Below, piece by piece: positions 20,685-38,022 of a DNA stretch of 38,042 bases. The first letter of the stretch is position 1. Each line of letters opens with the position of its first letter. The notes under the pieces were generated by a model. The model was given only the letters and a program-made list of their open reading frames with translations. It ran no database searches and was not told the DNA's origin. Source of the stretch: Acidobacteriaceae bacterium. Lineage in GTDB: Bacteria; Acidobacteriota; Terriglobia; Terriglobales; Acidobacteriaceae. Made by a program: the position numbers and the translations under genes. The stretch lies in assembly GCA_003151985.1 (NCBI GenBank), contig PLZC01000169.1, positions 11,657-49,698 on the forward strand, given 5' to 3'.

Positions 20685-21453
20685 TGTTCCTACCCCTGTC
20701 TTGTTCAATGCTTTTGATATAACCGCGGTCATACGCCGAGTAACTGAGGGTTCCGCTGTCATTCAACACGACGTAGTGGATGCGGCCTTTGAGCGCTTCA
20801 ATTGCCATCTTCACCAAGGGTGCCGGGGTCTTTCGCGCACGCACGATCAGGATGCCGATGGATGCATGATTGGCAATTTCGAGCGTATCTGCGATGGGAA
20901 ACGCGGGCGGGGTGTCCAGGATTACCCATCCAAACTTTCGTTGGGCCCAGTCCAGGAATCGCTTCGGACGTCCACTTACCATCAGATCGAGGACATCCCT
21001 TCCTTTCCCTTTGTTCATAGCCACACAAAGCCTTGTCCCCGGAATCGACTGCACACAGGCCTCAGGCGGTTGCTCTTCGGAAAGAACGTCTTCGACTCCT
21101 ACCTTCACAGGAGCCAGCCCTAATTTGTGGCGCAGAGTCGAGCGCCGTGTGTCGAGGTCTACCAACAATACAGGCGCGCGCTCTGCCAGGCACAAGGACA
21201 GGTTCAGAGCCGTCAACGTCTTGCCGTCATCGGGCGCGGGACTGGTCACCATGACCGTACCGCCCGCCGGATGATGATTCACCATCCGAGTTCCGATGCG
21301 GCGGAATTGTTCTGCGGACGCGCCGTATTTCTGATGGAGAAAAACGATCTTCCTGTCGCAATCCGCAAGCGTAAACGCCGCCTCGGGAAAAGCAACGTGC
21401 GGGATTATCGCCTGCTTGACGCGCCCGCCTTCGAGTGCTGCCTCGGGTACCAT
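20665..21453 (-). CDS. CpsD/Wzc-type bacterial tyrosine kinase domain protein
   Basis: Cytoplasmic BY-kinase of 262 residues that would autophosphorylate on tyrosines and so control polymerisation by its membrane partner, encoded just upstream. Visible motifs are the P-loop in SPAPDDGKTLTALNLSLCLA, Walker A' VLLVDLDTRRSTL, and Walker B WVILDTPPAFPIAD. Three tyrosines lie near the C-terminus (SYSAYDRGYIKS). The P-loop has DDGK where PGEGK or PGDGK is usual. The FRRI segment before the P-loop fits the kinases of XrtA-type EPS loci. ATG 21453 is preferred because AAGGAGG lies 5-6 bp before it; earlier ATGs at 21471 and 21495 have no such site. The kinase is encoded separately from its activator, unlike fused Wzc of Escherichia coli. 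Confidence 0.88.
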   Translation of the reverse strand: MVPEAALEGGRVKQAIIPHVAFPEAAFTLADCDRKIVFLHQKYGASAEQFRRIGTRMVNHHPAGGTVMVTSPAPDDGKTLTALNLSLCLAERAPVLLVDLDTRRSTLRHKLGLAPVKVGVEDVLSEEQPPEACVQSIPGTRLCVAMNKGKGRDVLDLMVSGRPKRFLDWAQRKFGWVILDTPPAFPIADTLEIANHASIGILIVRARKTPAPLVKMAIEALKGRIHYVVLNDSGTLSYSAYDRGYIKSIEQDRGRNNDFLSS

Positions 21454-22936: not shown

Positions 22937-24223
22937 TCAACGAGCCGCGGGTCCGTGAAGGTCCGCTGGGGGGCGGTTCCCGGAAGTCCAGGACAACGAT
23001 CCCATCACTAAGGTTCTTGCTGGCGCGATGTTGGCAATACCAGACCAGTTAAAGTGTTGTGCGGACAGAGAAACGTACAGGCCGCGTGGAAGCATGTGCT
23101 CGATTGTCCCGGCGAAATATTCCCCATGGAAAGGAGAGACTTGGGCAGGCACAGTGCCCGTGATAAAACCGCCCCGCGCTTTCACCCAGGCACGCATCCC
23201 AATCTGCTGATTAACTCCGCCTTGAACGGTGTCTTCATAGGTGAGCGCCACAAACTCGGAGTCGTTGAGCTTGCGGTAGGCCGAGAAGTACAGGTTCGTC
23301 AGCCTCCACGGCTGTGCAGAGACAGCCGCAAACAGGTTGGCTGTCACTTTGGTGACACAACTCGCGGTTCCCGCGGTTGGGCCGGCCGCGACTTCCGCGA
23401 TAACGTTGGGAGATAATCGTCGATCGTAGGACACCCCGATGCTTTGCGTGGTGCACTCGACGCTGCCCTTCTCGCTTGCTGTCTCTTCGTAGAGTCCAAC
23501 TCCAGCGCGAGAGGATGGCTGAAAATGGAATTCTGCTCTTCCGTGAATGGTATTCACTTGAGCCTTGTCATCGAAGAATTCCCGCAAGTCATTGCGCACG
23601 GAGAGGCTCCACCACCGATTCTCCGCGCTTTGGTGGAAAAGTCGGGCGGTTGCCTGGTTATCCAACACATTGCCGGAATGAATTCCATAGGATCCTGCCT
23701 CGACCGAATCGCTACTCAGGGGGGGAATGATGCGAATGGCGTCATTCCCATAGGAGCTCTCTACATCGAGGCTCAAAGCCGTTTGCGCGGAGTGCATTTT
23801 GTTAAACGAGAACGACGTGGTATTGAGATATTGCATTGAGCCTTGGCCAATGTGGTAGGCGATCCCCGTGATGGTGTTCTCGAGCATTGTGTAGCTACTG
23901 TTCCTGTGGAACAGCGCACCCACATATAACTGGCCGCCTTCGAGTTTCGCTCCCAGCGCTGCACGGCTATCAAAGGCCGTGTCATAGCCGCCCAATGCAG
24001 TTGTGGACAAAAACAAATGGTTGCCGCCGTCGCTCATGTTGCTGCTGCGAGAAAGGACATTGCACCGCGCTGCGGATTCTGAGGGCACTTGATTCATCTC
24101 AGGACAGCTCTGCGCGGTACTCGCAGGCGATTCGGGAACTTGCGTCGGGATCTGTCCCATCGCCCAGGTGCAACTAAGCGTCAGCGTTACGATTGCCTCG
24201 ATCTTCCAGTGGATGCGGGTCAT
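22937..24223 (-). CDS. Predicted outer-membrane beta-barrel protein of the EPS export operon
   Basis: Exported protein of 428 residues with a signal peptide ending near TWAMGQ. After a proline- and serine-rich linker, the sequence alternates short amphipathic strands with polar turns through to the C-terminus (for example GAKLEGGQLYVGALF, TALSLDVESSYG, AGVGLYEETASEKG, IGVSYDRRL, NLYFSAYRKL and GLYVSLSAQHFNWSG), as in outer-membrane barrels. I do not recognise a named family. A barrel of this kind between the export protein and the chain-length regulator is reminiscent of XrtA-associated EPS loci, so a role in moving the polymer through the outer membrane is plausible. The start overlaps the stop of the export gene as ATGA. 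Confidence 0.75.
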   Translation of the reverse strand: MTRIHWKIEAIVTLTLSCTWAMGQIPTQVPESPASTAQSCPEMNQVPSESAARCNVLSRSSNMSDGGNHLFLSTTALGGYDTAFDSRAALGAKLEGGQLYVGALFHRNSSYTMLENTITGIAYHIGQGSMQYLNTTSFSFNKMHSAQTALSLDVESSYGNDAIRIIPPLSSDSVEAGSYGIHSGNVLDNQATARLFHQSAENRWWSLSVRNDLREFFDDKAQVNTIHGRAEFHFQPSSRAGVGLYEETASEKGSVECTTQSIGVSYDRRLSPNVIAEVAAGPTAGTASCVTKVTANLFAAVSAQPWRLTNLYFSAYRKLNDSEFVALTYEDTVQGGVNQQIGMRAWVKARGGFITGTVPAQVSPFHGEYFAGTIEHMLPRGLYVSLSAQHFNWSGIANIAPARTLVMGSLSWTSGNRPPADLHGPAAR

Positions 24224-24937: not shown

Positions 24938-24954
24938 TGCAATTGGCAGGCCAA
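24938..24954 (-). promoter_or_regulatory. Sigma-54 (-24/-12) promoter candidate for the export operon
   Basis: Read on the minus strand the sequence is TTGGCCTGCCAATTGCA, which matches TTGGCACG-N4-TTGCA at all but positions 6 and 7 and has the required GG-N10-GC spacing. The predicted transcription start is near 24927, giving a 48-base leader before the export gene. It lies in the only large gap of the minus-strand gene series, where an internal promoter would be expected. Confidence 0.6.
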
Positions 24955-25012: not shown

Positions 25013-25043
25013 GTGCAAATTGCAGGTTGAGTGTGTGCAAATT
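25013..25043 (+). promoter_or_regulatory. Direct repeat GTGCAAATT, candidate activator-binding site
   Basis: GTGCAAATT occurs at 25013-25021 and 25035-25043. The 22-bp offset is about two turns of the helix, so both copies face the same side. They lie roughly 86-116 bp upstream of the start predicted from 24938-24954, the usual distance for a sigma-54 activator site. Similar TGCAAACTT sequences occur before the activator gene and in the divergent region at 36523-36531. Function is inferred. Confidence 0.35.
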
Positions 25044-25072
25044 AATGCATCTCGGTAGCTTTTGGATGGGAA

Positions 25073-26344
25073 TCAAGCAAGAACTGCCGCGTAGATTGCC
25101 GCGGTGCGTGCGCCGATTTCAGACCACGGCGTCGGCAAGATGCCGTTTTTGCTGCTCCCATCCCTCAGTCCCTGGTACAGTTCGTCCCTGCCGCATAGCG
25201 CATCCAGCGCTCCCTCCAGGGCCTGAACGTCTTCCGCCGGAACCAGGAGCGCGTTATGGCCTTGCCGCAGATAGTCTCGGAACGGTAGCAAATCGGATGC
25301 AATGATAGGTTTGCAGTAGCTTAGTCCCGTCAGGAGCGCTCCACTGGTCGTTATCTTCCGGTAGGGGTAGAGCAACACATCGGCCGCACCGAAATAGAAG
25401 GGCACCTCCTGGGCTGCCGAGTAGCGCAGGTCCATTCGAACAACACCGTCGTCCAGCCTCAAGGCGGCTGCTTCTTGGCGGAGAGCACGCACTTCTGACT
25501 CATCGCCGTGCCCTGCAATCAACAGCAGAGGCCGTTCGCCGCCTGACCATCGCGCCATCAGCTTCGCCCATGCGCGCAGAAGCAGATCGGTTCCTTTATA
25601 AGGACGAAGTACTCCATGGGCGAGGAAAACTTGTCGCGTTGGATCGAGCCCGAAATGTGCTCTGCACTCCTCTTTGCTACGGACGGGGCCATCTGCAAAC
25701 AAAGGTCCGTGCGGCACCACGTAAATGCGTTTCGGGGCAACGGAAAATAGTGCTTGAAGGTCGCGCGCAGTTTGCTCGCTGTGGCACACAAGAGCATCGG
25801 ATAAGCCGTAGAGCTTGGCAAAGTGCGTAGCGAGAAACTCACTCTCCCCATGCGGGAGCAGATTGTGAACCGTGTGAATCACGCGGGTACCGCGCCGCTT
25901 ACACCAGCGCAGGAAACTCAACTCCATCTCATAGCCGTGCTCGAGCAGCACGCACTGTTGCTGGTGCAGGATATCCGGCGGCCTGCGTGTTGCCTCCAAC
26001 GCCAGCGAGGCGGTGTCGATCAGGTATTCTGTCAAGCGAGCCCCCTTCAGCAGCCGGCCAGGGCCCAATCCACCACGTGTTGATATATCGAGCGGCCCAG
26101 GTCGCGTGACAAGCCCCTCCTCTTGGAAATAGAGCGGTTCAAGCTGGTAACGGGGACATACCAGCCGCACATCCATTCTCTGGCGGAGAAGAGCGCGTGT
26201 GAGGGCAGCCGTGTACCACGGTGTGCGGCACCAGGGATCGTACATCCACACTCTGATTTGCGCTTTGGTTTGAGTCTCGATCGTGTTTTCGCTCCGCCTC
26301 GTGCGGTCGACCAAAGGCGCGAGCGGCATCTGCTCCGTCATCAC
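25073..26344 (-). CDS. Family 4 glycosyltransferase
   Basis: GT-B glycosyltransferase of 423 residues. The acceptor-side domain has HTVHNLLPHGESEF and DALVCHSEQTARDL. The donor-side domain has FLAHGVLRPYKGTDLLLRAW, LLIAGHGDE, and DVLLYPYRKITTSGALLTGLSYCKPIIAS. The last lacks the usual EAMA-type helix, so the donor loop is somewhat unusual for the family. The start overlaps the stop of the upstream GT4 gene (GTGA junction at 26341-26344); an in-frame ATG follows at 26341. It is the last gene of the upstream operon, before the 193-bp gap. Confidence 0.9.
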   Translation of the reverse strand: MMTEQMPLAPLVDRTRRSENTIETQTKAQIRVWMYDPWCRTPWYTAALTRALLRQRMDVRLVCPRYQLEPLYFQEEGLVTRPGPLDISTRGGLGPGRLLKGARLTEYLIDTASLALEATRRPPDILHQQQCVLLEHGYEMELSFLRWCKRRGTRVIHTVHNLLPHGESEFLATHFAKLYGLSDALVCHSEQTARDLQALFSVAPKRIYVVPHGPLFADGPVRSKEECRAHFGLDPTRQVFLAHGVLRPYKGTDLLLRAWAKLMARWSGGERPLLLIAGHGDESEVRALRQEAAALRLDDGVVRMDLRYSAAQEVPFYFGAADVLLYPYRKITTSGALLTGLSYCKPIIASDLLPFRDYLRQGHNALLVPAEDVQALEGALDALCGRDELYQGLRDGSSKNGILPTPWSEIGARTAAIYAAVLA

Positions 26345-27468
26345 CGGCTCATTTCTCGATAGAGAGTGGCGTATTGGAGCGCCATCCTTTGCCCGGAGTG
26401 ATGCGCTAACACCTCATTGCGCGCCGCTTCCCCTAACTGGCTAAGTTTTTCGCGGCTTGAAGCCAGCGCCAGCATTGCCGATGCCAGCGCGGCACTATCG
26501 CCCGGAGCAATTAGCCGTCCGAATAACTCGTTGCGAACAACCCTCTCAACGGAACCTACTTTCGTTGCAATCACGGGCCGGCCTTCCGCCATCGCCTCCA
26601 GCAAGGCGATGGGCATGCCTTCGTCCAATGAGGGCAGCACGAAGACGTCAAGCGAAGCATAGAAGTTCGGCATCGTGCCGCATCGTCCAAGAAATCTGAC
26701 TTTCCCACCCACTCCGAGATTGCGAGCGAGTTCGTGATACTCCTCGGCTTTTGGTCCATCGCCTGCGATCAGGAATCGCGCCTCTGGCAGTGACTCCGTC
26801 ACAACCTTCGCAGCGCGAAGCAGCACATCCACGCCCTTGGCGCTCACCTGTCGGCAAGCGGCGCCGAAGATGAACGCATCTTTGCCGAAAATGGATCGAA
26901 ACTCCGGTTTTCCCGCGCCGAACCTCTCGGCGGAAATCTGATTGGGGATGAGCGCCAGTTTCTCGCTCGCGATTCCGGCCTTCTGTAATTCATCCAGAAT
27001 CGGTTGCGAAACCGCAACCACTTTGTCGAAGCGCCGCAACATGAGTGCGTCGATGCGCGCATATCCGCGCAGGGCCCATGTGGCTCGAGTCCAAAGGTGG
27101 CAGGTAGAGAGCATTGGAAGCCCCGCCATTTTTGCGGCAACTCCGCCATAGACATCCGGTTTGTAGCCGTGGCTGTGAATCGCATCAATGCCGAGCCGTT
27201 TCATTTCTGCCCTGAGCCGGACCACGAAACCAAAATCCATCCGCCTTTCATGCTCCAGGGGGATCACCTCACATCCGTCGACATGCTCCTCCAGTCGGAA
27301 GCTCCGGCGCGCGGCCGCGTATCGCATGTGACCAACACACGTTTCCACACCAAGCGCTGGCAAAGTGCGCGCCAGAGTGGCAACCACTGCCTCCGCACCA
27401 TAAAACCCGGTACTGCCAATCAAATGCAAAACGCGCATGCTCTTACTTTCCCGGTCGAGTGAATTCAT
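26341..27468 (-). CDS. Family 4 glycosyltransferase
   Basis: GT-B glycosyltransferase of 375 residues. The N-terminus has MRVLHLIGSTGFYGAEAVVA, followed by IDAIHSHGYKPDVYGGVAAK in the acceptor domain. The donor domain has CRQVSAKGVDVLLRAAKVV, FLIAGDGPK, and PSLDEGMPIALLEAMAEGRPVIA, with the E-x7-E pattern that binds the nucleotide sugar. An ATG at 27438, directly before RVLHLIG and preceded by GGGAAAGTAAGAG, is an alternative start that would remove ten residues. A 74-bp gap separates it from the deacetylase gene, with no convincing promoter. Confidence 0.92.
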   Translation of the reverse strand: MNSLDRESKSMRVLHLIGSTGFYGAEAVVATLARTLPALGVETCVGHMRYAAARRSFRLEEHVDGCEVIPLEHERRMDFGFVVRLRAEMKRLGIDAIHSHGYKPDVYGGVAAKMAGLPMLSTCHLWTRATWALRGYARIDALMLRRFDKVVAVSQPILDELQKAGIASEKLALIPNQISAERFGAGKPEFRSIFGKDAFIFGAACRQVSAKGVDVLLRAAKVVTESLPEARFLIAGDGPKAEEYHELARNLGVGGKVRFLGRCGTMPNFYASLDVFVLPSLDEGMPIALLEAMAEGRPVIATKVGSVERVVRNELFGRLIAPGDSAALASAMLALASSREKLSQLGEAARNEVLAHHSGQRMALQYATLYREMSR

Positions 27469-27542
27469 GCTTTCTGCGAGACACTCATCGCTGGAGACGC
27501 TTTATCGGTAGCTTGATCGAGCGGGTAGCAAGTGAAGCCCCA

Positions 27543-28268
27543 TTACGATCCGTAGGCCCCGGATCGGGCCGCCTTGCGCCACAATCGGTGGTAAAGAGAA
27601 TCGCCAATTAGCGCTTTCGCCACGGTCTTCATCCTGGACTCCATTTCGAGCCGCCGGCATACGAAAGGATCTCCATCAAGATACGCGGCCAATGTGCGAT
27701 CGCTCGTCCCGCCCCGCACAATGTAACGGCCTATCACCTCTGGCAAATTGCCTGTGGATCGTTTGCGTTCCGCCACACGCGAGGTATAGACGCGCTTGTA
27801 TCCCGCTTCCCCGCAGGCCATGAGCACTCGCTCATTGATTCGCCCTCCGGGCATTGAAATTGAATCCACTTCGACCCCAAGCCGTTGTTCGATGATCTCT
27901 TTTGAGACTGTCATCTCATTGCGCAGTGCAACTGGGCCACATGCGGTGAGCATCGGGTGCGTGTGTGAATGGGAACCGACAATTTGTCCAGCCTGTTGGA
28001 GTTCGCGCAGATCACGCCAACACATCACGCTGTGCAGAAAACCCACCCACGCCGTGGTGATGAAGAAGATACCGGCCAGCCTCATTTCATCGAGAATCGG
28101 CGCCGCGAAGTCGAACTGTGACCGATGGCCGTCATCAAACGTTATGCAACTCCGCGCGCCCGATAGCCCGTCAACCAGACGTGCGTGCCGCCTGAATGTC
28201 TCTGACGGAAGTGAATACACATCGCGTTCTGGGGTTCTTGAAAACTCGTGGTAAGCAAGCATCGTCAT
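27543..28268 (-). CDS. Polysaccharide deacetylase (NodB-like), second of a tandem pair
   Basis: Carbohydrate esterase family 4-type domain of 241 residues that would remove acetyl groups from N-acetyl sugars using a metal ion. Visible motifs are SCITFDDGHRSQFDFAAPIL (motif 1 with the catalytic and metal aspartates), GSHSHTHPML (motif 2 metal histidines), and MPGGRINERVL (motif 3 with the arginine). No signal peptide is seen at the chosen start. ATG 28268 overlaps the stop of the previous deacetylase gene as ATGA. A longer open frame to 28469 lies wholly in that gene and is rejected. A cytoplasmic location would suit an action on a lipid-linked intermediate. Confidence 0.88.
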   Translation of the reverse strand: MTMLAYHEFSRTPERDVYSLPSETFRRHARLVDGLSGARSCITFDDGHRSQFDFAAPILDEMRLAGIFFITTAWVGFLHSVMCWRDLRELQQAGQIVGSHSHTHPMLTACGPVALRNEMTVSKEIIEQRLGVEVDSISMPGGRINERVLMACGEAGYKRVYTSRVAERKRSTGNLPEVIGRYIVRGGTSDRTLAAYLDGDPFVCRRLEMESRMKTVAKALIGDSLYHRLWRKAARSGAYGS

Positions 28269-29425
28269 GCCACCATAACTCCCGGCATGGTGAACGACAC
28301 CTCTGGCCCTGCCGCGGCAACATCTGTCCTCCACTGCCTGAATGGAATGAATTGATAGCTCGCAAGAAGTCGAGTCAACTTCAGCTCGAAGGATTCGAGT
28401 CCCCAATATTGCCGTAGCCTCGACTTCCATGGACCGTTCAGCCGCGGCTGTCCGGGGTCGATCTCCCAAGGGTGCAAATAAACGACCGGCAGGTGCGTGC
28501 GCCGGGAAAGTTGGTCGATCGCCATCCGCGAGTAACCGAGTGGGAAAATTCGCAGATAGCCTCCACCAGCCGCCGGCAGGGTCATGTTACCAATGGAAAA
28601 CGTTGCCGGCGGAATCTCAATCATGTCGTTATGGCCTGTCTTCCATACATATGGCGCGGCGCTTGCACCTGGAATTCCATAGAGATCGTGATGCACCGGA
28701 TAAACGCTGGAGTCGTATTCGAAACCCTCCTCTGCCAGCACGTTGATCGCCCATAGACTCTTGCGGGTGATGGACCAGGTGGGCGCTCGATAGCCGCTGA
28801 CCCTGACACCGGCCGCATCTTCAATTGCCCTCACCGCGTCGCGGGTGTCTTGTCGAAAGACTTCGGGCGTTATCGAATAGATAGTACGGTGCCAATAACT
28901 ATGACAGGCCAGTTCGTGACCTCGGACAGCGATTTCCCTCACCAATTGTGGGACGCGATCGGCGATCCATCCCATCACGAAAAACGTTGCCTTTGCGTTG
29001 TGAGTATCAAAAATGTCCAAGAGCCTTTTGGTGTTGTCCACGACCCGCAGAGGATAGTTATCCCATTCTTCACGCGGCGCGACCGCCGAAAATGCTTCTG
29101 TTTGAAAGTAATCTTCCACATCGACGCTGAGAAGGGGCCGCGCTATGGCCATTCGCGGCTTCTCAGCATGCTCATCGATTCTCATCGACATCAATTCGAC
29201 CGCAGGATAGTCAGATCGTGCCGTGCCATGATCTTGCACGTCTGACTCGCGATCGGTGTGGACCCATCTTTTCAGCCCTTGCACCAGCAGCGAGAGCAGC
29301 AACGACCCGACGCCCAAAATGAGCAACAACAAAGAATCGCTGCGCGTGCTATTTATTTGTGCCAGCGGCGCCGGGTTAGTCTGCATCAAGGCTAGAGCGA
29401 ACGCTGCGCCTGGTATAAAGATCAT
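28265..29425 (-). CDS. Membrane-anchored polysaccharide deacetylase with DUF3473-type C-terminus (XrtA-associated type)
   Basis: Protein of 386 residues with an N-terminal hydrophobic anchor (SLLLLILGVGSLLLSLLVQG, about 31-50), then a deacetylase domain. The domain has LLSVDVEDYFQ in place of TFDDG, ATFFVMGWIADRVPQLV, and HELACHSYWHRTIY with metal-binding histidines. RAPTWSITRKSLWAINVLAEEG comes next, and the closing YLHPWEIDPGQPRL region is characteristic of the DUF3473 subgroup commonly found in XrtA/PEP-CTERM EPS loci. It probably acts on the polymer in the periplasm. It starts 6 bp after the FAD oxidoreductase gene, with GAGGTAAG about 9 bp before the ATG. Confidence 0.9.
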   Translation of the reverse strand: MIFIPGAAFALALMQTNPAPLAQINSTRSDSLLLLILGVGSLLLSLLVQGLKRWVHTDRESDVQDHGTARSDYPAVELMSMRIDEHAEKPRMAIARPLLSVDVEDYFQTEAFSAVAPREEWDNYPLRVVDNTKRLLDIFDTHNAKATFFVMGWIADRVPQLVREIAVRGHELACHSYWHRTIYSITPEVFRQDTRDAVRAIEDAAGVRVSGYRAPTWSITRKSLWAINVLAEEGFEYDSSVYPVHHDLYGIPGASAAPYVWKTGHNDMIEIPPATFSIGNMTLPAAGGGYLRIFPLGYSRMAIDQLSRRTHLPVVYLHPWEIDPGQPRLNGPWKSRLRQYWGLESFELKLTRLLASYQFIPFRQWRTDVAAAGPEVSFTMPGVMVA

Positions 29426-29431
29426 AGCAAC

Positions 29432-30820
29432 TTACCTCACTTCCATCCGATGTTGTCCCGCATCCACCAATAAATCCAGGCAACTCGTCCCTGCGCGTAA
29501 TCGTGCCTGCCGCTCGAGATCATTCATCACGAGCTTGCAAGCGATCCGCGCGATTCCAACCATGGCGTTGTTATTCAACGTGTCATTCACGATTTGTGTG
29601 GTGTTGGCTACAAACAAGTGCGGCATACTTGTTGCCGCCGTCGGCGCGTGCGCGGAGTAATTGAGCGTGGGGACCGGCTGAACGTACCGTTCACGAAAGA
29701 TCTGAGTAGACAGGATGTCTTCGCACCGCAATTGAGGGTGAATCTTGAACAGTGCCGGCGCGAATCTCTCCCACACATCATGGTCCGTTAAATCGAACAG
29801 AGGATCCGAAGGGGATGTGTACTTGGGCAGATAGACGAGAGCGTGTCCATTTGTCTCCCGCGCGCAATCGATCAGGTTGGTCATCTCGACAATGCCGGTG
29901 AATGGCGCCTGTTGCGTCACGTTGATCAAGTAATAAGGGCTCACGGCTCGCTTCAAAACGAGAACCACGCAAACCATCCCCAGATATTGCGGCATCGTTA
30001 GCCTTGAGCGATATTCCTTGCTCAAAGAGGGGACGCACGAAAGAATGGCTGGCGCAGGTACTGTCATGATGCATGCATCGAACTCGCGAAATCCATCATT
30101 CGCAGTGAGTCCGACGCCAAGTTCCGTCTGTTCGACACTTTTCAGGGAGATGCCGGTTAGGATCTTCCCTCCCATAGCATGGATCTCGTCGACGAGACGA
30201 TCCATGACAACCCGGTAGCCGCCTTCTACATAACCGAGTTGCTCCTCCTTGCTGACGCTGTCGGATCGGGTGGAATACAGTCTCCGAATCGTCGCCCAGA
30301 GAAACGCGGCGGATGCTTGGGAGCGCATATCGCCTAACTTGCAGCGCAGGAGCGGTTCCCAAAGCTCGCGATAGAGTGTCTTACCGAATACACGAAGAAT
30401 CCAATCCTTGAGTGGCACCGCTTCCAGGCCGGCGCCGTCACACATTCGAGCGGCATAGAGGATGCCCAGCCCAAAACGAATCTTGGCCCACAACGGCAAG
30501 CACGGAAACCGCAACAGGTCCGCAGGCCGCGTCATCGTATGCAAACTGTCCCTGCTGTAGAAGCCCACTTCTGTCTTGCGCCAGCGCAGTTTCTCTTTGA
30601 GCCCAAGGTCGTCAATCAGCCCAAGCAGGGACGTGTCTGAAGTGAGAATGCAATGATAGAAGCGGTCCCAATGGAAGTCGCCGAAATCGTGGCTGGTGGC
30701 CAGGCCCCCAACCGTTTTCCGGGCCTCGATCACCGTAACTTGCACGCCTGCTTTGAGCAGCGTATGTGCTGCCGTCAGGCCCGTAATACCCGCTCCGACA
30801 ATGGCTACACCCGCACTCAC
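29432..30820 (-). CDS. NAD(P)/FAD-dependent oxidoreductase (amine-oxidase/UDP-galactopyranose-mutase-like fold)
   Basis: FAD-binding protein of 462 residues. The N-terminus is a dinucleotide-binding fold, VAIVGAGITGLTAAHTLLKAGVQVTVIEA, followed by the second FAD motif KTVGGLATSHDFGDFHWDRFYH. A C-terminal segment (HLFVANTTQIVND) contacts FAD in related enzymes. Its substrate is unknown; similar proteins often sit beside glycosyltransferases and small transporters in surface polysaccharide loci. GTG 30820 is preferred because it overlaps the upstream stop as GTGA and places the FAD motif at the N-terminus. An ATG-type start at 30907 would add 29 unstructured residues inside the previous gene. 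Confidence 0.83.
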   Translation of the reverse strand: MSAGVAIVGAGITGLTAAHTLLKAGVQVTVIEARKTVGGLATSHDFGDFHWDRFYHCILTSDTSLLGLIDDLGLKEKLRWRKTEVGFYSRDSLHTMTRPADLLRFPCLPLWAKIRFGLGILYAARMCDGAGLEAVPLKDWILRVFGKTLYRELWEPLLRCKLGDMRSQASAAFLWATIRRLYSTRSDSVSKEEQLGYVEGGYRVVMDRLVDEIHAMGGKILTGISLKSVEQTELGVGLTANDGFREFDACIMTVPAPAILSCVPSLSKEYRSRLTMPQYLGMVCVVLVLKRAVSPYYLINVTQQAPFTGIVEMTNLIDCARETNGHALVYLPKYTSPSDPLFDLTDHDVWERFAPALFKIHPQLRCEDILSTQIFRERYVQPVPTLNYSAHAPTAATSMPHLFVANTTQIVNDTLNNNAMVGIARIACKLVMNDLERQARLRAGTSCLDLLVDAGQHRMEVR

Positions 30821-31149
30821 CGGTTCACTCCCACCATCACCACTCCCGCGGTGATCATCAGAACTGCGATCCAGCGCCGTCTTGAAATTCGTTCGCGTAA
30901 CAACCACCTTGCCAGCAGCGTAACGAGCACATATCCCGCGCCCAAAAGCGGATATGCATAGGAGATATCGGACTTACTTAACGCGGCGAGCCACAATGCA
31001 GTGGCAACGGCAAAGCACAGTCCCCAGAGTGCGGTCCATCGCCACGCGCCCGACGGGCAACTGGTACGCAGCGATGCCCCGTAGCGTAAAGAGATCTGCG
31101 CACAAGCGCCGAGCCCAACACTTCCCAGCAATGGAACCAGCGCAGTCAT
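30817..31149 (-). CDS. Small four-helix transporter of the SMR/EamA type (ArnF-like), second of a pair
   Basis: Inner-membrane protein of 110 residues with four hydrophobic segments. The third has YAYPLLGAGYVLVTLLARWLL and the last IAVLMITAGVVMVGV, which is the small-multidrug-resistance pattern shared with the ArnE/ArnF lipid-linked aminoarabinose flippase subunits. It overlaps the upstream partner as ATGA and the downstream oxidoreductase as GTGA. A heterodimer that flips a polyprenyl-phosphate sugar is a reasonable inference from the pairing and from the locus; a drug exporter would be out of place. Confidence 0.8.
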   Translation of the reverse strand: MTALVPLLGSVGLGACAQISLRYGASLRTSCPSGAWRWTALWGLCFAVATALWLAALSKSDISYAYPLLGAGYVLVTLLARWLLRERISRRRWIAVLMITAGVVMVGVNR

Positions 31150-31604
31150 GCAGCACCTCGCTCACCGCTCGCAGCCATCAACGCCACGCCGAAAGTGGTC
31201 AAGGCGATACCGGCCCAACGCCACGGATGGACAATTTCGCCGAACAGCACATGGCCACAGATGGCCACAAGGGCGTAACTGCCGGCGCTGAGCGGGTAGA
31301 GATAGCTGATCGGCGCACGAGATACAGCTTTGATCCAGAACCAGGTTCCAACTGCGTAAATGCACAGTCCAAGAACAATGCCTGCGGCACACATGAGACG
31401 TGGATCGCCCGTCGCAGCGGTGTCAATAGGATGAGGGCTCAAAAGAAGCAGCGCTGCCTTCAGCATGAGTTGACCGGCCGCACCCAGGACCACAGAGATC
31501 ACCACCAGAAGCTCGACTCGAACCCTTCCCGGTTCCGCGGATTCAGACCCGCGCGCAGTCCCTTGAAGAGCTGCAGCGGGGATTAATGTCCCCGGAGTAC
31601 TCAT
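31146..31604 (-). CDS. Small SMR/EamA-type membrane transporter (ArnE-like), first of a pair
   Basis: Protein of 152 residues with four hydrophobic segments after a polar N-terminal stretch of about 28 residues. Motifs include LGAAGQLMLKAALLL in segment 1, WFWIKAVSRAPISYLYPLSAGSYALVAICGHVLFGE in segments 2-3, and WAGIALTTFGVALMAASGE in segment 4. The AxSYxYPL sequence is shared with its partner. The start overlaps the epimerase stop as ATGA. A start nearer segment 1 cannot be excluded because the N-terminal stretch looks poorly conserved. Confidence 0.8.
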   Translation of the reverse strand: MSTPGTLIPAAALQGTARGSESAEPGRVRVELLVVISVVLGAAGQLMLKAALLLLSPHPIDTAATGDPRLMCAAGIVLGLCIYAVGTWFWIKAVSRAPISYLYPLSAGSYALVAICGHVLFGEIVHPWRWAGIALTTFGVALMAASGERGAA

Positions 31605-32635
31605 GCGCGCACTCCTTCGACCATCGTCGAAGTTTCAGCCTCAGGTCCCACCGATTGGCCGAGCACCAATGGCCGCTGCCACTCGATCGTCTTTTGCAGG
31701 CCCTCATCGAGAGTAACCCTCGCCTCGAAGCCCAGGGTACGCTTTGCTTTCGTGATATCCGGAACACGCCGGCGAACGTCTTCATACCTGCGCCCGCTGA
31801 TCTCGTTGTATGGCAGAATTTGCAGTCGCAATGGCCACGGCACCGCACACAGCCGATGTATCTCTTGTGCCAGTTCCAAGATCGTAATCTCGACATTGTT
31901 GCCGATGTTGATGATCTCGCGATTCAGGCAATCAGCCTTTCCCACGGCCGCGATCCCGCGCACCGTGTCGGACACATACGTAAAGCTGCGCGTCTGCAAC
32001 CCATCGCCGTGAATCGGTATCGTCTGGTTCCGAAGAACCGCATCAATAAAGACGGCTTGCGGCCCTCCCCACCAGCTCAGGTGCTGCCTGGGCCCGTACG
32101 AACCGAATATCCGGATCACCGTGGCCGGAATCCCATGCTCCTCTGACATTGCGAGCACCAGATGCTCATCGAAGAGCTTCGACGCCGCATAAGCCCATCG
32201 GGAAATCGTGGGAGGTCCGAGCACTGAGTCGCTCTCCTCCGAGAACGGCAACACGGGATTCTTGCCATATACATCCGAAGTTGACGTAATCACAAACTTT
32301 GCGCTGTGCTCAACTGCCAGTTGGAGAGCGTTGAGTGTGCCATCTGAATTGATTCGCAGGGTGTCCGTTACTTTGCCGTAACGAGGAATCTTGAATGCCG
32401 CCAAATGAAGCACGAGGTCCAGCCCGCTTCCGGCGGCTTTCCGAAGCGCCTGCCGATCGCAGACGTCTCCAAAATGGAAAATGAAATTGGGGTGCAGCCG
32501 CGCGTTCTCAAGGTTACTGAGATTTCCGTGCGATAGATTGTCGTAGCCTATGACGCGGTAACCTGTTCTCAACATCTCATCCACTAGATGCGATCCCAGG
32601 AACCCCGCTGCGCCGGTTATGAATGCAGTTTTCAT
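31601..32635 (-). CDS. NAD-dependent nucleotide-sugar epimerase/dehydratase (extended SDR)
   Basis: Cytoplasmic extended short-chain dehydrogenase of 344 residues. It has the NAD-binding motif TGAAGFLGSHLVDEML, HLAAFK, a TSTSDVYG active-site serine/threonine segment, and the catalytic WAYAASK (YxxxK). The later IHGDGLQTRSFTYVSDTVRGI and DITKAKRTLGFEARVTLDEGL are typical of UDP-glucose 4-epimerase/UDP-glucuronate decarboxylase-type enzymes. Exact substrate and reaction are not readable. Starts and stops overlap both neighbours as ATGA. Confidence 0.88.
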   Translation of the reverse strand: MKTAFITGAAGFLGSHLVDEMLRTGYRVIGYDNLSHGNLSNLENARLHPNFIFHFGDVCDRQALRKAAGSGLDLVLHLAAFKIPRYGKVTDTLRINSDGTLNALQLAVEHSAKFVITSTSDVYGKNPVLPFSEESDSVLGPPTISRWAYAASKLFDEHLVLAMSEEHGIPATVIRIFGSYGPRQHLSWWGGPQAVFIDAVLRNQTIPIHGDGLQTRSFTYVSDTVRGIAAVGKADCLNREIINIGNNVEITILELAQEIHRLCAVPWPLRLQILPYNEISGRRYEDVRRRVPDITKAKRTLGFEARVTLDEGLQKTIEWQRPLVLGQSVGPEAETSTMVEGVRA

Positions 32636-33729
32636 TGCGATTCCCCTCGAAGAGAATTCAAAATTGTTTTCACGCTGGCTTCTCCGGCTCTCCCGGAGCC
32701 GAACTGCTCCAGGTCCGGCACCCCTTTCGGAAGAGAGCCATTGCCGCGCAGCAGGCTATCCACCACCGGAAGCACGACATCCGGGTTCATATCCAATACC
32801 CGGTTCCAACCGCCTTCAAGCGTCTCTTTCCACTCCGTCTCGGTACGCAGAGTGAGGCACGGAACACCAAGAAAGTAGGCTTCCTTCTGCACACCGCCAG
32901 AATCGGTCAGGACCATGCACGCGTCCCGCTCCAAAGCCAGCATCTCCCCGTAATCACAGGGTTCAAGAACTCGCACATGCGAAAGTCTTTCAATCCGTGC
33001 CAGATCATTGGCCGGCAACTTGGCGCGCAGCCTGGGGTGCATCGGCAATATCGCCGTCAGCGGTAGTCGCTCTAGCAGCGTGATGAATCTTCCCATCCGC
33101 GCCGGAGAGTCCGTGTTTTCAGCCCGATGCATTGTGACCAGCGCGTAACTGTCTTTGGCGAGTTCATGCGGATCCAGTCCTGCCGCATACTTGAGCAGCA
33201 AGTCGAGCATCACGTCGCCGGTCAGATAGCTCTTGTCGCCCAGACCTTCCCGTTGTGCGTTTTCAATCGCCGTTGCTGTCGGGCAAAGCAATACATCCGA
33301 AAGGTGGTCGGTCGCAACGCGATTGATCTCCTCAGGCATGCGGCGATTGAAACTCCGCAAACCCGCCTCCAGATGAATCACGCGTACATGCAGCTTGGCG
33401 GCTGCGAGTGCGCCAGCGACCGTCGAGTTTGTGTCCCCGTAAACGATCACGGCGTCCGCGCGCCACTCGCTGAGCACCCGTTCGATGCCAGCCAGCATCG
33501 CGCCCGTTTGCGCACCGTGATTTCCAGAGCCGATGCCCAGATGAAAGTCTGGATCAGGAATGCTCAATTGGCGAAAAAAACAGTCAGACATCCGCGGATC
33601 ATAGTGTTGACCGGTATGCAGAATCCGGTGCTCAATCTCCGCGCCTTCGGGCAGAGCTTTGAGTGCTGCAGCAATCACGGCCACTTTCATAAACTGCGGG
33701 CGCGCGCCAACGATGGAGAGGAGCCTCAT
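32632..33729 (-). CDS. wbpI: UDP-N-acetylglucosamine 2-epimerase family protein, WbpI-like
   Basis: Cytoplasmic GT-B-fold non-hydrolysing epimerase of 365 residues. Motifs are IVGARPQFMKVAVIAAAL, GDTNSTVAGALAA, HLEAGLRSFNRRMPEEINRVATDHLSD, TGDVMLD, TMHRAENTD, and LTDSGGVQKEAYFLGVPCLTLR. GARPQFMK and the NRRMPEE form are those of the WbpI/WlbD branch, which converts UDP-GlcNAc3NAcA to UDP-ManNAc3NAcA, rather than the GTRPEAIK form of WecB. The start overlaps the stop of the acetyltransferase gene as ATGA. The neighbouring WbpB and WbpD homologues strengthen the substrate assignment. Confidence 0.87.
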   Translation of the reverse strand: MRLLSIVGARPQFMKVAVIAAALKALPEGAEIEHRILHTGQHYDPRMSDCFFRQLSIPDPDFHLGIGSGNHGAQTGAMLAGIERVLSEWRADAVIVYGDTNSTVAGALAAAKLHVRVIHLEAGLRSFNRRMPEEINRVATDHLSDVLLCPTATAIENAQREGLGDKSYLTGDVMLDLLLKYAAGLDPHELAKDSYALVTMHRAENTDSPARMGRFITLLERLPLTAILPMHPRLRAKLPANDLARIERLSHVRVLEPCDYGEMLALERDACMVLTDSGGVQKEAYFLGVPCLTLRTETEWKETLEGGWNRVLDMNPDVVLPVVDSLLRGNGSLPKGVPDLEQFGSGRAGEASVKTILNSLRGESQ

Positions 33730-34472
33730 ATCTGATGCTCCAGGAGCTGCTCGGCAGGAACCGGGCGACGCTCCCGCGCCGGCGATCCAATCACTGTCAT
33801 GCGGTCCGTCACGTCATGCGTAACCACAGACCCGGCGCCCACCAGCGCGTCGGCTCCGATCGTAATACCCGGCAAGATCGTCGCATTGGCGCCTATCCGC
33901 GCTCCCTGCATCATCGTCACGCCGCGGTGGTGCTTGAAACGTTCAAGCGTGCGGCCTAGGAATCGATCATTGGAAAATGTAACCTCGGGCGCGATGAAGC
34001 AGTCGTCATGAACCGTTGATAAAGCGGTAATGTAGGCGTTTGTCTCGATCTTGCATCGCGCGCCGATCTCCACTTTGTTCTCTACCGCTACGTTGCGCCC
34101 GATGATCGTAAATGGGCCGATGGTTGTCTCTTCCCTGACTGTTGCCAGGTCGGCCACCATCACGCCATCCTCGATCAATGCGCCGCGGTAAATAATGGCG
34201 TTGGTGCCTATCATGCAATCGTCCTTGATGATGCAGGGCGCAAGCTCTGCGCGCGTCGTAGTTGCGCTTCGACTGGAGCGCATCGGCAACTTGCCGAGCA
34301 CTGCGTTGTCGTCGATGCGGACTCGATCTCCTATCTGGGTGCCGGCATGAATAATGACTCCATGCCCAATTTGACAGCTCAAGCCGATGCGAACATTCGC
34401 TTCGACAACGACGTTATGCCCGCAGAGCAGACCAGCATCGATCTGCGCGCTCGGATGCAGCGTGATATTCAT
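33726..34472 (-). CDS. wbpD: Left-handed beta-helix N-acetyltransferase, WbpD-like
   Basis: Hexapeptide-repeat acyltransferase of 248 residues. Nearly the whole protein is built of isoleucine/valine-led hexapeptides, for example IDAGLLCGHNVVVEANVRIG, IGDRVRIDDNAVLG, and IGANATILPGITIGADALVGAGSVVTHDV, ending with GSPARERRP. Enzymes of this type next to a Gfo/Idh oxidoreductase transfer acetyl from acetyl-CoA to the 3-amino group of UDP-GlcNAc3NA (WbpD/WlbB). It is longer than the roughly 190-residue WbpD, with two extra stretches around residues 65-80 and 150-165. ATG 34472 follows AGAGGG; the open frame upstream overlaps the WbpB-type gene. The true overlap with that gene is about 59 bp. Confidence 0.85.
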   Translation of the reverse strand: MNITLHPSAQIDAGLLCGHNVVVEANVRIGLSCQIGHGVIIHAGTQIGDRVRIDDNAVLGKLPMRSSRSATTTRAELAPCIIKDDCMIGTNAIIYRGALIEDGVMVADLATVREETTIGPFTIIGRNVAVENKVEIGARCKIETNAYITALSTVHDDCFIAPEVTFSNDRFLGRTLERFKHHRGVTMMQGARIGANATILPGITIGADALVGAGSVVTHDVTDRMTVIGSPARERRPVPAEQLLEHQI

Positions 34473-35487
34473 CATTCCCTCTAAGTCCGACTGGAATTCC
34501 ATCTTGTTCCAAAGAACGTTGTGCCGCTTCGAGGATTCTAACGACCCGCAATCCATCGGCTGCATCGCTGCGGGGACGAGTGCGATTCGCCACACAATTC
34601 AGGAAGTGCTGGCACTCCAACTTAAGCGGTTCGGCAGCGGACACCCTGGGAATACGAATGTCGCCAAATCGTACTTGAATTGCCTCTCCGTAACTGCGTG
34701 CCTGCTGCGGTGTAGCGCAGCTATCGTAAATACGTAACTTTTCAGTCACCGCCACGTCATCGAAAACAGCCATTCTCTTGCTGCCGACAATGGTGGTTGT
34801 GCGGGTCTTGTGCGGATCGAGCCAGCTCAGGTGGATGTGCGCCATGATGCGGTTGTCAAAAAACAGGCTCAGGAAGACGACATCCTCGATCCCCTTTTGA
34901 ATAAAGCTCTGTCCGCGCGCACTCACGTCAACCGGGTCAACTCCCAGCATGTAAAGGATCTGCGAAATGTCGTGCGGCGCGAAGCTCCAAAGCGCGTTCT
35001 CATCGCCGCGGATGCGGCCCAGGTTCACTCGCTGGGTGTAGATGTAGTAAATGTCGCCCAGTTCCCCGGATTGGATTAGGTTGCGCAGTTCCTCAACCAC
35101 AGGATGGTATTCAAGGAGATGACCAACCATCAGAACGCGTGAACGCGCCGTGCCCAGGTGCATTAGCTCTTCGGCATGCTCCACATTCAGGGTGAAGGGC
35201 TTTTCAACGAAGACGTCGTAGTCTGCCAGCAGCGATTTGCGAACCAGAGGATAGTGGGTGACGGCCGGGGAACTGATCACCACGGCCTCAATGTCGGCCC
35301 CCGTGAACATCTCATCAACGGTCGCGTAAGCTCTTACGCCGGACCAGTTCTTCTCAGCCGCGTTCCGTCGCGACTCGCTCAATTCGCAGCAGGCCACCAA
35401 CTCACAATCCGGCAACTCATAGAAACACCGGCCCACGTTCCATCCCCAAGCACCAAGGCCGATCACTCCAACTCTTACTCGCCTCAT
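34414..35487 (-). CDS. wbpB: Gfo/Idh/MocA-family oxidoreductase, WbpB-like
   Basis: NAD-dependent oxidoreductase of 357 residues, expected to oxidise C3 of UDP-GlcNAc-uronic acid. The Rossmann motif is VGVIGLGAWGWNVGRCFYEL. The catalytic-site EKPFTLNVEHAEEL contains the family EKP lysine, and GHLLEYHPVVEELRNLI and WSFAPHDISQILYMLG follow, the latter with the HD pair near the active site. The last roughly 25 residues overlap the start of the acetyltransferase gene and look less conserved. It begins 13 bp after the GT2 gene, with AGGAG upstream of the ATG. Confidence 0.87.
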   Translation of the reverse strand: MRRVRVGVIGLGAWGWNVGRCFYELPDCELVACCELSESRRNAAEKNWSGVRAYATVDEMFTGADIEAVVISSPAVTHYPLVRKSLLADYDVFVEKPFTLNVEHAEELMHLGTARSRVLMVGHLLEYHPVVEELRNLIQSGELGDIYYIYTQRVNLGRIRGDENALWSFAPHDISQILYMLGVDPVDVSARGQSFIQKGIEDVVFLSLFFDNRIMAHIHLSWLDPHKTRTTTIVGSKRMAVFDDVAVTEKLRIYDSCATPQQARSYGEAIQVRFGDIRIPRVSAAEPLKLECQHFLNCVANRTRPRSDAADGLRVVRILEAAQRSLEQDGIPVGLRGNDEYHAASERADRCWSALRA

Positions 35488-35500
35488 TCTGTCTCGCTCC

Positions 35501-36355
35501 TCAACTAGTCGTTTGGTCTTTTTCCATTGCTGTGAAAGCGGAGTTAATCCTGGCCGGGCTATCCATACTCACGGGCATTCGCACAAAAACCGGCTCTCGG
35601 CGAGCAAAAGTTGCCACCAGTGATGTTCGCGCTGCGTTCCATAGCACTGCCAGATGCGCCCCGATCGTCGTCGCAATCCTGATCTTGCTGTACCCATGCT
35701 GCCGCGCATAGAGCACCATCGGAACCTCGCTTACCCGGTACCCCTTACGCTGGGCACACAACAAGATCTCAACCGCAGAGACAAAGCCATCGCTCTTAGA
35801 CTTCACTTCTTTGGCTGCCGCCCTGCTGTATGCGCGGAATATGCTGGTGTAGGTGTACAGTTTCAGTGGACTAACCAGGCGGTAGAGGGCCGAACACTGC
35901 CGGCTAAGAATCAGCCGCCAGGGTTTAACTCCGATAACTGCGCCTTGAGGATGATAGGGAGAAGCGACCGCAATATCGGCATGGCCGCTCTCCACCATCT
36001 CGATTAACTCGCAAAGCTTCTCGGGCGGGTAGCTGCAGTCCGCATCGATTGTGCATACAATTACGCCAGAAGCCTCGTTGAGCCCGGTGCGAATCGCCGC
36101 ACCCAGTCCCCGATTGTGCTCATGGTGCAGGCAGACACAACGCGCATCCGGAGGCGCAACGGCGGCCATGAGACTCCGCGTCCTGTCGGTGCTGCCGTCA
36201 TCGACCAGGCAGTATTCAACTTCATACCGCGAGGACACACTCTCATGTAGGCGAAGAAGCTTTTCGCTCAAAAGCGCAATGGACTCCTCTTCGTTGCACA
36301 TCGGCACAACAATTGAGAGTCGACTCTTCTCGTTCTGGACGTCGGGAATTAACAT
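35501..36355 (-). CDS. Family 2 glycosyltransferase, dolichyl-phosphate-mannose-synthase-like
   Basis: GT2 enzyme of 284 residues that would move a sugar from a nucleotide donor to a lipid phosphate or growing glycan on the inner face of the membrane. Motifs are IVVPMCNEEESI, LVDDGSTDRT, the donor-metal TIDADCSYPPEKL (DxD) and YARQHGYSKIRI near the C-terminus. The GYSK segment and overall length match DPM1-like GT2 proteins without transmembrane helices. It is the first gene of the minus-strand operon. Little ribosome-binding sequence precedes ATG 36355, and the predicted leader from the nearest sigma-54-type element is only about 17 bases. Confidence 0.9.
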   Translation of the reverse strand: MLIPDVQNEKSRLSIVVPMCNEEESIALLSEKLLRLHESVSSRYEVEYCLVDDGSTDRTRSLMAAVAPPDARCVCLHHEHNRGLGAAIRTGLNEASGVIVCTIDADCSYPPEKLCELIEMVESGHADIAVASPYHPQGAVIGVKPWRLILSRQCSALYRLVSPLKLYTYTSIFRAYSRAAAKEVKSKSDGFVSAVEILLCAQRKGYRVSEVPMVLYARQHGYSKIRIATTIGAHLAVLWNAARTSLVATFARREPVFVRMPVSMDSPARINSAFTAMEKDQTTS

Positions 36356-36382
36356 AGGTTCGCTCGCTGCCGCATAGGTTTA

Positions 36383-36399
36383 TGCAACTAGCGTGCCGA
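36383..36399 (-). promoter_or_regulatory. Strong sigma-54 (-24/-12) promoter candidate for the 36355-25073 operon
   Basis: On the minus strand the sequence is TCGGCACGCTAGTTGCA, which matches TTGGCACG-N4-TTGCA at every defined position except the second, with GG-N10-GC spacing. The predicted transcription start is near 36372, 17 bases before the GT2 start codon. Confidence 0.72.
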
Positions 36400-36495
36400 A
36401 GTGAAATATGTTGTCAATGTCGTGAAAACTGCGCCAAATTGATCAAAGGTCGAGGTTCCTAATGCACTTGGCGCGACGACTTCGGACGTAGATCA

Positions 36496-36512
36496 TGCAA
36501 AACACCTGCCAA
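36496..36512 (-). promoter_or_regulatory. Second sigma-54 (-24/-12) promoter candidate for the same operon
   Basis: On the minus strand the sequence is TTGGCAGGTGTTTTGCA, matching TTGGCACG-N4-TTGCA at every defined position except position 7, with correct GG-N10-GC spacing. The predicted start is near 36485, giving a leader of about 130 bases. It lies 113 bp upstream of the first element, so the operon may have tandem sigma-54 promoters. Confidence 0.65.
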
Positions 36513-36522
36513 ATAACACAAA

Positions 36523-36531
36523 AAGTTTGCA
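36523..36531 (-). promoter_or_regulatory. TGCAAACTT motif shared with the activator gene upstream region
   Basis: The minus-strand sequence TGCAAACTT is identical to 389-397 before the activator gene and close to the GTGCAAATT pair at 25013-25043. It lies about 150 bp upstream of the start predicted for the first minus-strand element and about 125 bp upstream of wbpA. A nine-base match can arise by chance; the role is speculative. Confidence 0.25.
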
Positions 36532-36608
36532 CATCCGAGTTGTCGGCAAGCGGTAACTTCGCAGCCCGTATTTCCTATGCTCAATAAACATCGGTTGGGA
36601 AATCGGTC

Positions 36609-36629: not shown

Positions 36630-36646
36630 TTGGCATACGGACTGCT
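36630..36646 (+). promoter_or_regulatory. Sigma-54-like promoter candidate for wbpA, predicting a leaderless mRNA
   Basis: The sequence TTGGCATACGGACTGCT has GG-N10-GC spacing and matches the TTGGCA and TGCW parts of the consensus, with mismatches at positions 7, 8 and 13. The predicted start of transcription is at about 36657, one base before the wbpA ATG. No ribosome binding site precedes that ATG, which is consistent with a leaderless transcript. A fortuitous match remains possible. Confidence 0.42.
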
Positions 36647-36657
36647 ACAGCATCGGC

Positions 36658-38022
36658 ATGGCTACGCAAACAGTAACTATCCCCGAACCCGTTCTATCTC
36701 GACTCGATCGAATCCAAAACAAGACTGCCAATGTGGGCGTGATTGGACTCGGCTATGTCGGGCTCCCTCTCACACTTCTACTGTCCGAAGCAGGGTTCAA
36801 AGTCACTGGGTTCGATATCGATCAGGTCAAGGTCGCCCACCTCGAAGCGGGCCGGTCGTATATCCACAGGATTCCTCAGACAGAAGTTGTCCGGGCCCGC
36901 GAACAAGGATTCCGGGCCACCTGTGACTACGCAGAACTATCTCTACAGGACGCTATGATCATTTGCGTCCCCACGCCACTCACAGAGCATCGCGAGCCCG
37001 ATCTCAGCTTTATTCGGATGACGGCGGAGTCCATTGCGCCATGGCTCGTCGAAGGCCAGATCGTGATCCTTGAAAGCACGACCTACCCGGGGACCACTGA
37101 AGAGGTGCTTGTCCCAATCCTTGAAAAAGGAAACGCCAAGGGACTCATGGCGCGTCGCGCGAGCATGGACCCCGACGCGCGAACCTTCCAGATCGCCTTC
37201 TCGCCGGAGCGCGAGGACCCAGGCAATGATTCCGTCGCCCGCCGGGACATCCCCAAGGTGATCGGTGGTCTCGACCCCGTGGCGTCTGAAATGGCCTCGG
37301 GCGTTTATGGCGCCATCTTTAACCGCACTGTGCCTGTCTCTTCAACTTCCGTCGCAGAGATGACCAAACTTCTTGAGAATATATATCGTTGCGTCAATAT
37401 TGCCATGGTCAACGAGCTCAAGATTCTTTGCCTGAAGATGGGAATAGATATCTGGGAGGTAATCGGCGCCGCAGCTACAAAACCTTTTGGCTTTCATCCC
37501 TTCTATCCGGGACCAGGCCTGGGTGGTCACTGCATTCCAATCGACCCATTCTATTTGAGTTGGAAGGCTCGCGAATGGGACTTTCATACGCGATTCATCG
37601 AGCTCGCCGGCGAAGTGAACGAAGCCATGCCCGAGTTTGTCGTGCAGTCGGTGGGCGCGGCGCTTAATCGGCAAAGCATCGCCCTGCGAGGCGCTCGCAT
37701 CCTTGTGCTCGGAATTGCGTACAAGAAAGACGTGGATGACCTTCGCGAATCGCCTTCGCTCACCATCATCGAAAGCCTTCAAAAGCAAGGAGCCGAGGTT
37801 TCCTTCAACGATCCATATTTCCCAACAGTCGGTCGCGGCCGTCACTACAATCTCAACATGACCTGCGCGCCGCTTACTAACTTGAGCCAATACGACTGCG
37901 TTCTGATTGTCACCGATCACTCCGACTACGACTTTGATGCCATCGTTCGGGAATCTCGCCTTGTAGTCGACACCCGCAACGCAACCAACGGGATCCGCTC
38001 TCCGAAGATCGTCCGTTGCTAG
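36658..38022 (+). CDS. wbpA: UDP-N-acetylglucosamine 6-dehydrogenase-type nucleotide-sugar dehydrogenase, WbpA-like
   Basis: NAD-dependent dehydrogenase of 454 residues that would oxidise C6 of UDP-GlcNAc to UDP-GlcNAc-uronic acid, the first step towards diacetamido-mannuronic acid. The N-terminal Rossmann motif is VGVIGLGYVGLPLTLLLSEAG, then CVPTPLTEHREPDLS, ESTTYPGTTEE, and FSPEREDPGN. The catalytic cysteine is in PGPGLGGHCIPIDPFYL (Cys292). The C-terminal UDP-binding domain begins near ILVLGIAYKKDVDDLRESP. ESTTYPGTT, the FSPEREDPG loop and IDPFYL suit the WbpA branch rather than UDP-glucose dehydrogenase. It is transcribed away from the minus-strand operon and ends 20 bp before the window edge, where no further gene can be judged. 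Confidence 0.9.
   Translation: MATQTVTIPEPVLSRLDRIQNKTANVGVIGLGYVGLPLTLLLSEAGFKVTGFDIDQVKVAHLEAGRSYIHRIPQTEVVRAREQGFRATCDYAELSLQDAMIICVPTPLTEHREPDLSFIRMTAESIAPWLVEGQIVILESTTYPGTTEEVLVPILEKGNAKGLMARRASMDPDARTFQIAFSPEREDPGNDSVARRDIPKVIGGLDPVASEMASGVYGAIFNRTVPVSSTSVAEMTKLLENIYRCVNIAMVNELKILCLKMGIDIWEVIGAAATKPFGFHPFYPGPGLGGHCIPIDPFYLSWKAREWDFHTRFIELAGEVNEAMPEFVVQSVGAALNRQSIALRGARILVLGIAYKKDVDDLRESPSLTIIESLQKQGAEVSFNDPYFPTVGRGRHYNLNMTCAPLTNLSQYDCVLIVTDHSDYDFDAIVRESRLVVDTRNATNGIRSPKIVRC

Follow-up and report, generated by a model that had tools for sequence, protein, structure and literature searches.

Sigma-54 has been connected with slime-polysaccharide (EPS) genes in several bacteria. In Vibrio fischeri, the accessible portions of two reports describe four syp promoters under the control of SypG and sigma-54 (PMC3843225, PMC10162802). 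EPS-linked activators appear in the available text on EpsI/Nla24 of Myxococcus xanthus (PMC4877007) and on BerB/RpoN of Burkholderia cenocepacia (PMC5552954). A study of multiple genomes connects the factor with genes related to EPS (PMC3162934), and a paper on PEP-CTERM proteins ties sigma-54 to PEP-CTERM genes in Proteobacteria (PMC1569441), both as far as their accessible sections go. With these cases published, sigma-54 control of an EPS locus is a kind of regulation already known. Among the open-access matches listed (in part the best 15 of 55 and the best 10 of 830), we found no account of sigma-54 control of acidobacterial EPS genes, of the enhancer dyad described below, or of receiver-defective activators in this setting. 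On tandem sigma-54 promoters, the open-access matches listed came to a single paper on a synthetic circuit, which says little either way.

The window analyzed here is a stretch of 38,042 nucleotides, part of a 49.7-kb contig in a 6.03-Mb draft genome that is 73% complete. It carries an EPS locus of four transcription units. A plus-strand unit encodes EBP2 (535–1611, start at 535 or 556), an AAA+ activator with a GAFTGA motif and a Fis-type HTH and without a receiver, together with a DegT-family aminotransferase (1621–2763) and an EpsB-like initiating sugar transferase (2794–4122). The second EPS operon (4151–24879, minus strand) begins with the export gene and also encodes a 428-aa unknown protein, chain-length and kinase-like proteins, a 1924-aa protein, a DUF2079 protein, a flippase, Wzy, transferases and a TIG protein. 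The 428-aa protein (22937–24223), located between the export and chain-length genes, has no match in Pfam or NCBIfam. The 1924-aa protein (14988–20762) contains BACON_2 and 3-keto-disaccharide hydrolase domains, and a relative of it is present in 10 of the 14 related clusters that we read. The first EPS operon (25073–36355, minus strand) runs from GT2 to GT1 with about 12 genes, and is divergent from the gene for a UDP-sugar dehydrogenase, UGDH (36658–38022, plus strand). A second GAFTGA-containing activator, EBP1 (L043:9154–10689), which has a receiver-like domain, lies about 1 kb before the window; both activators adjoin the EPS locus. The genome also contains rpoN, whose product reads RRTVAKYRE near its end, which we take to be the RpoN box. 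Near EBP1 (L043:1–9000), transposase-like and reverse transcriptase-like frames were recognized by eye, along with runs of unknown residues; the mobile-element-like frames and the patchy spread of the EPS cluster hint at a mobile locus.

We judge syp to be the closest precedent for this locus. Both are large EPS loci with several sigma-54 promoters, those in the window being predicted in silico only. Both also encode an enhancer-binding protein that acts through a defined enhancer sequence, described for syp in the accessible parts of the reports and predicted here (PMC3843225, PMC10162802). SypG, according to the same portions, needs phosphorylation of its receiver, whereas the receiver of EBP1 is degenerate and EBP2 has none. 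The enhancer motif, the phylum and the gene content also differ between the two loci. The first-pass annotation regarded tandem sigma-54 promoters on a main EPS operon as unusual; syp, in the available text, is already a case of a main EPS locus with several sigma-54 promoters (PMC3843225, PMC10162802). For the M. xanthus activator, binding of c-di-GMP has been shown, in the part of the paper open to us (PMC4877007). BerB, as presented in the accessible sections, resembles EBP2 in having no N-terminal input domain and in adjoining an EPS cluster, but it acts on the regulator gene berA, whose product then activates the EPS genes (PMC5552954).

Two sigma-54 (-24/-12) sites are found on the minus strand in front of the GT2 operon. 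The proximal site (36383–36399) reads TCGGCACG-CTAG-TTGCA from 36399 to 36383, and the distal site (36496–36512) reads TTGGCAGG-TGTT-TTGCA from 36512 to 36496. They are 113 bp apart, and each differs at one position from TGGCACG-N4-TTGCW while keeping the exact GG-N10-GC spacing, just as the first-pass annotation had described them. The transcription start is reckoned near 36372 for the proximal site and near 36485 for the distal site, 17 nt and 130 nt before the ATG at 36355. Both orientation and distance before a gene are right for sigma-54 promoter sites, and the tandem is real in the sequence. The sites do precede the operon to which eleven genes had been assigned, but the operon has 12 frames, and 11 only if the 110-aa frame at 30817–31149 is left out.

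The significance of the pair was analyzed by scanning the window and shuffled controls, a check that had been proposed from the outset. Using an approximate sigma-54 matrix, the distal and proximal sites are the best and second-best positions in the window on both strands, and none of 30 shuffles contained such a pair. Among 600 dinucleotide-shuffled versions of the window, a single one contained two same-strand sites with no more than one mismatch each inside 130 bp, in agreement with the earlier claim that such a pair is unlikely to arise by chance. When the 302-bp intergenic region was shuffled and its minus strand scored with the same approximate matrix, one site of that score appeared in 26 of 20,000 trials and two in none. 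A single match of at most one mismatch is weak evidence: the whole genome contains 64, compared with 46 in a reversed control. Sixty-one of the genome's matches lie outside the window; among the 49 examined, 33 are within genes and 8 are upstream of a gene. There are two other close same-strand pairs in the genome. One is wholly intragenic, and the other consists of one intragenic site and one without a gene within reach. A scan for sigma-70 promoters gave none, a result that says little as only 0.6 were expected.

Relatives of the cluster were collected with two anchors. GT2 matched 20 relatives, of which nine were read and eleven, at 33–43% identity, were left out; GFO matched 13, five of them new, giving 14 read in all, including Terriglobus albidus and Granulicella mallensis. 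One of the 14, G225, belongs to the same family as the window's genome and shares sequence with Terriglobus albidus DSM 26559. GT2 is a poor anchor within the genus (best same-genus match E 6e-23, 33% identity), a GT2 scan of named genomes found no relative, and the GFO gene is absent from every same-genus genome searched. Within the genus, G008 does contain a related EPS cluster, accompanied by an activator and preceded by a site.

Nine of the 14 relatives (G225, G301, G205, G197, G237, G177, G355, G650 and G608) have a divergent UGDH/GFO layout. In all nine, UGDH, GFO and the export gene are each preceded by a sigma-54 site that reaches 9 or higher on a matrix built from the clade, and by an upstream dyad that reaches 11 or higher (27 of 27 promoters). 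The dyad consensus is GTRTGCA-N6-TGCAYAC, and UGDH and GFO share one dyad. The distance from the end of the dyad to the -24 element is 57–61 bp at GFO in seven relatives and 126–127 bp in two, 67–70 bp at export in all nine, and 105–111 bp at UGDH in eight relatives and 223 bp in one. Dyad-like sequences of 17–20 bits were also seen within GFO in five relatives. The position of GT2 varies: it follows UGDH in the nine relatives and precedes GFO in the window, G213, G486 and G649. These three share the GT2-GFO order of the window, but GT2 is not the first gene of its unit.

Sites are mostly missing from the five relatives whose layout differs. At the genes tested, G083, G486 and G649 contain nothing that scores 9 or more as a sigma-54 site. 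G213 has such a site at export, where no dyad accompanies it, plus a weaker site at EBP2, and G561 reaches no more than 8.0 in its 3.5 kb. In G486, where all three genes tested lack a site of 9 or more, the EBP1 homologue has no GAFTGA, a concordance that speaks for sigma-54 control. TIGR03006 was also used to select XrtA-type EPS loci, giving 13 in 12 genomes, one of which (G083) is also among the 14 relatives. They have few upstream sigma-54 sites and none at the export gene, indicating that the pattern belongs to the cluster type of the window and not to XrtA-type loci in general. The genes most like EBP1 or EBP2 are found in 4 of the 13.

The clade matrix was built from 19 unique sites, one from G213 and the rest from seven of the nine divergent-layout genomes, with no input from the window; the dyad matrix was built from 13 sites of the same seven. 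For sigma-54, each training site was the top-scoring one in a relative's promoter region, which makes the conservation seen across those genomes partly circular. G650 and G608 were withheld from training; G650 is the clean case, and G608 is closely similar to G355, which was used. Over 40 kb of G650, the UGDH, GFO and export promoters take precisely the top three places for sigma-54. The sites in G608 are weaker, with GFO at rank 6, export at rank 13 and UGDH scoring 9.5.

Applied to the window, the clade matrix places five promoter-placed sites, which together precede all four transcription units, at ranks 1, 2, 3, 8 and 9 of 76,054 positions. The distal site at 36496 is first. The second is the site of the second EPS operon, before its export gene (24938–24953, minus strand; rank 5 with the approximate matrix), which has a counterpart in all nine relatives with the divergent layout. 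The third (504–519, plus strand) precedes EBP2-DegT-EpsB and is only rank 25 with the approximate matrix. The proximal site is eighth, and the UGDH site (36631–36646, plus strand; rank 6 with the approximate matrix) is ninth. Ranks 4–7 fall within genes. The export, EBP2 and UGDH sites are additional to the pair in the first-pass annotation, and transcription from them is reckoned to start at 24927, 530 and 36657, respectively. In shuffles of the 302-bp region scored with the clade matrix, the best score was reached in 5 of 5000 and the second score in 1 of 5000. For the other promoters, shuffles reached the best score in 10 of 5000 cases at export, 29 of 5000 at EBP2 and 87 of 5000 at UGDH; thus, taken alone, the UGDH site is the weakest.

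A predicted activator-binding site, an enhancer dyad at 25033–25052, scores 17.0 with the dyad matrix. It is the best of 38,023 positions in the window, the next scoring 10.5, and its score is reached in 4 of 5000 shuffles. It lies 79 bp upstream of the export site at 24938, about one helical turn further than in the relatives. A second dyad (386–405), 98 bp upstream of the 504 site, retains the TGCA-N6-TGCA core and scores 5.9 (rank 17). We regard it as weak, since three such cores occur in the window compared with 0.92 expected. In the window's own genome (G000), dyad-like sequences with up to two mismatches number 45, compared with 10 in the control, an excess suggesting that the activator may have further targets.

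At UGDH, the sigma-54 site in the window is separated from the ATG at 36658 by only 11 bases, and an in-frame ATG follows the site after 12–13 bases in all nine relatives with the divergent layout. Initiation by sigma-54 polymerase is conventionally placed about 12 bases past the C of the -12 element. With such a short gap, the 5' end of the UGDH transcript would fall only a few bases from the ATG, leaving the mRNA nearly leaderless. GTG codons further into the gene are possible starts in the window; they are absent at those places in the relatives compared.

How the two GT2-operon sites are to be read depends on the comparison with GFO promoters. The proximal site is 232 bp from the UGDH site and the distal site 119 bp; in the relatives, the GFO-side and UGDH-side sites are 182–191 bp apart in six, about 250 bp in G355 and G608, and about 300 bp in G225. 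Measured from the UGDH site, the proximal spacing fits better, which makes this site the likelier equivalent of the GFO promoter in relatives. A further GFO-directed site scoring 9 or more is missing from all nine relatives, which each have a single one with a dyad upstream. Between 36356 and 36657 no intact dyad is present, the dyad matrix giving 2 at most anywhere in that divergent region. What is found between the divergent promoters is a degenerate enhancer-like stretch (36515–36534) with the half-site TTTGCACAT; it contains only half-sites and no full dyad, and lies 96 bp from the UGDH site, 116 bp from the proximal site and about 3 bp from the distal site. We also considered the distal site itself as an intact enhancer dyad, a candidate not supported by the dyad matrix. 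The distal site is the best match, but it could be either a second promoter peculiar to the lineage or a site without activity. It is a serious possibility, falling somewhat short of an even chance, that only the proximal site is a promoter, the distal one being left over from the enhancer region or being an inactive sigma-54 site that merely looks like a promoter. The single GFO-directed site in the relatives argues for this, as does the location of the distal site near the expected place of the dyad, where only a half-site is left. Against it, two matrices name the distal site as the best sigma-54 match in the window, and dyad scores across the divergent region stay at 2 or below. That both promoters of the tandem are active has about an even chance. 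Of the tandem sigma-54 promoters proposed by the first-pass annotation, then, sigma-54 control stands on conservation, dyads and matrix ranks, but the activity of both sites finds no backing in the relatives or in an intact dyad.

Two alternatives would remove the locus from the regulon proposed here. The sites could be chance matches, with the operon driven by an unrecognized sigma-70-type promoter; the abundance of matches of at most one mismatch in the genome, mostly intragenic (33 of 49), is consistent with this. The pair statistics (1 of 600 window shuffles), the position and orientation of all five sites, and the conservation of sites and dyads in relatives make it improbable. More improbable still is membership of the PrsK/PrsR regulon of PEP-CTERM/exosortase EPS loci, the parallel drawn in the first-pass annotation. 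The published regulon does resemble this one, in the accessible text, in linking a -24/-12 site and an upstream activator motif to EPS-type loci (PMC1569441), and the deacetylase of our locus passes the XrtA-system model TIGR03006 (332.4 over a cut-off of 276.2). The chain-length, export and kinase proteins resemble the XrtA type below the cut-offs of the corresponding models, and EpsB is under the cut-off of TIGR03013 and over that of TIGR03025. However, the 73%-complete genome yielded no exosortase (PF09721) and, among 30 matches to PrsK (TIGR02916), none over the cut-off. The two neighboring activators, the only ones of the genome that were scored, reach 286.5 and 281.5 against a PrsR (TIGR02915) cut-off of 502.6. 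On these results the locus does not look like that regulon. The predicted targets also differ, being the EPS genes themselves in the window; in Aquincola, by the available portion of the report, the EPS synthesis genes seem not to be RpoN-regulated (PMC9850573).

We consider sigma-54 control of the EPS locus very likely, and there is a high probability that the sites are promoter elements of a locus-wide EPS switch run by EBP1 and EBP2. Weighing against it are the missing dyad in the divergent region, the few sites in relatives of other layouts and in XrtA-type loci, their weakness in G608, the dyad-like sequences inside GFO and the lack of a site of 9 or more before EBP1. Computation on the genomes establishes the sites with their conservation, the dyads with the spacing found in relatives, and the presence of rpoN and the activator genes. 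Every transcription unit of the cluster appears to be under the same sigma factor and activators, an arrangement kept in several relatives. In the proposed scheme, EBP1, with a degenerate receiver, and EBP2, with none, both encoded beside the locus, would bind TGCA-type dyads. Their GAFTGA loops would serve to open the sigma-54 polymerase at each unit's promoters, located at 36383 and 36496 for the GT2 operon, at 36631 for UGDH, at 24938 for the export operon and at 504 for EBP2-DegT-EpsB. For this scheme we infer the binding, the promoter activity, the assignment of activators to promoters and the signal.

The receivers are a distinctive feature of the scheme. The receiver-like domain of EBP1 varies among relatives; in an alignment read by eye, it has Glu where the receiver of G213, which looks intact, has Asp. 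With Glu for Asp in EBP1 and no receiver in EBP2, we found a phosphorylatable receiver in neither activator. No sigma-54 site of 9 or more was found upstream of EBP1 in its own genome or in eight relatives. An extended reading, tentative and rather unlikely in all its parts, would give the divergent region three sigma-54 promoters, a true tandem pair and the nearly leaderless one of UGDH, with receiver-defective activators controlling every unit including EBP2's own operon. EPS synthesis would then run as a feed-forward switch that has no kinase of its own.

Acidobacteria abound in soil, and for this member of the group the analysis predicts an EPS regulon with activators and an enhancer motif at the DNA level. 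The nearly leaderless sigma-54 promoter at UGDH, which nine relatives share, would, if true, represent an unusual promoter geometry. The regulon is also predicted in culturable species of Terriglobus and Granulicella.
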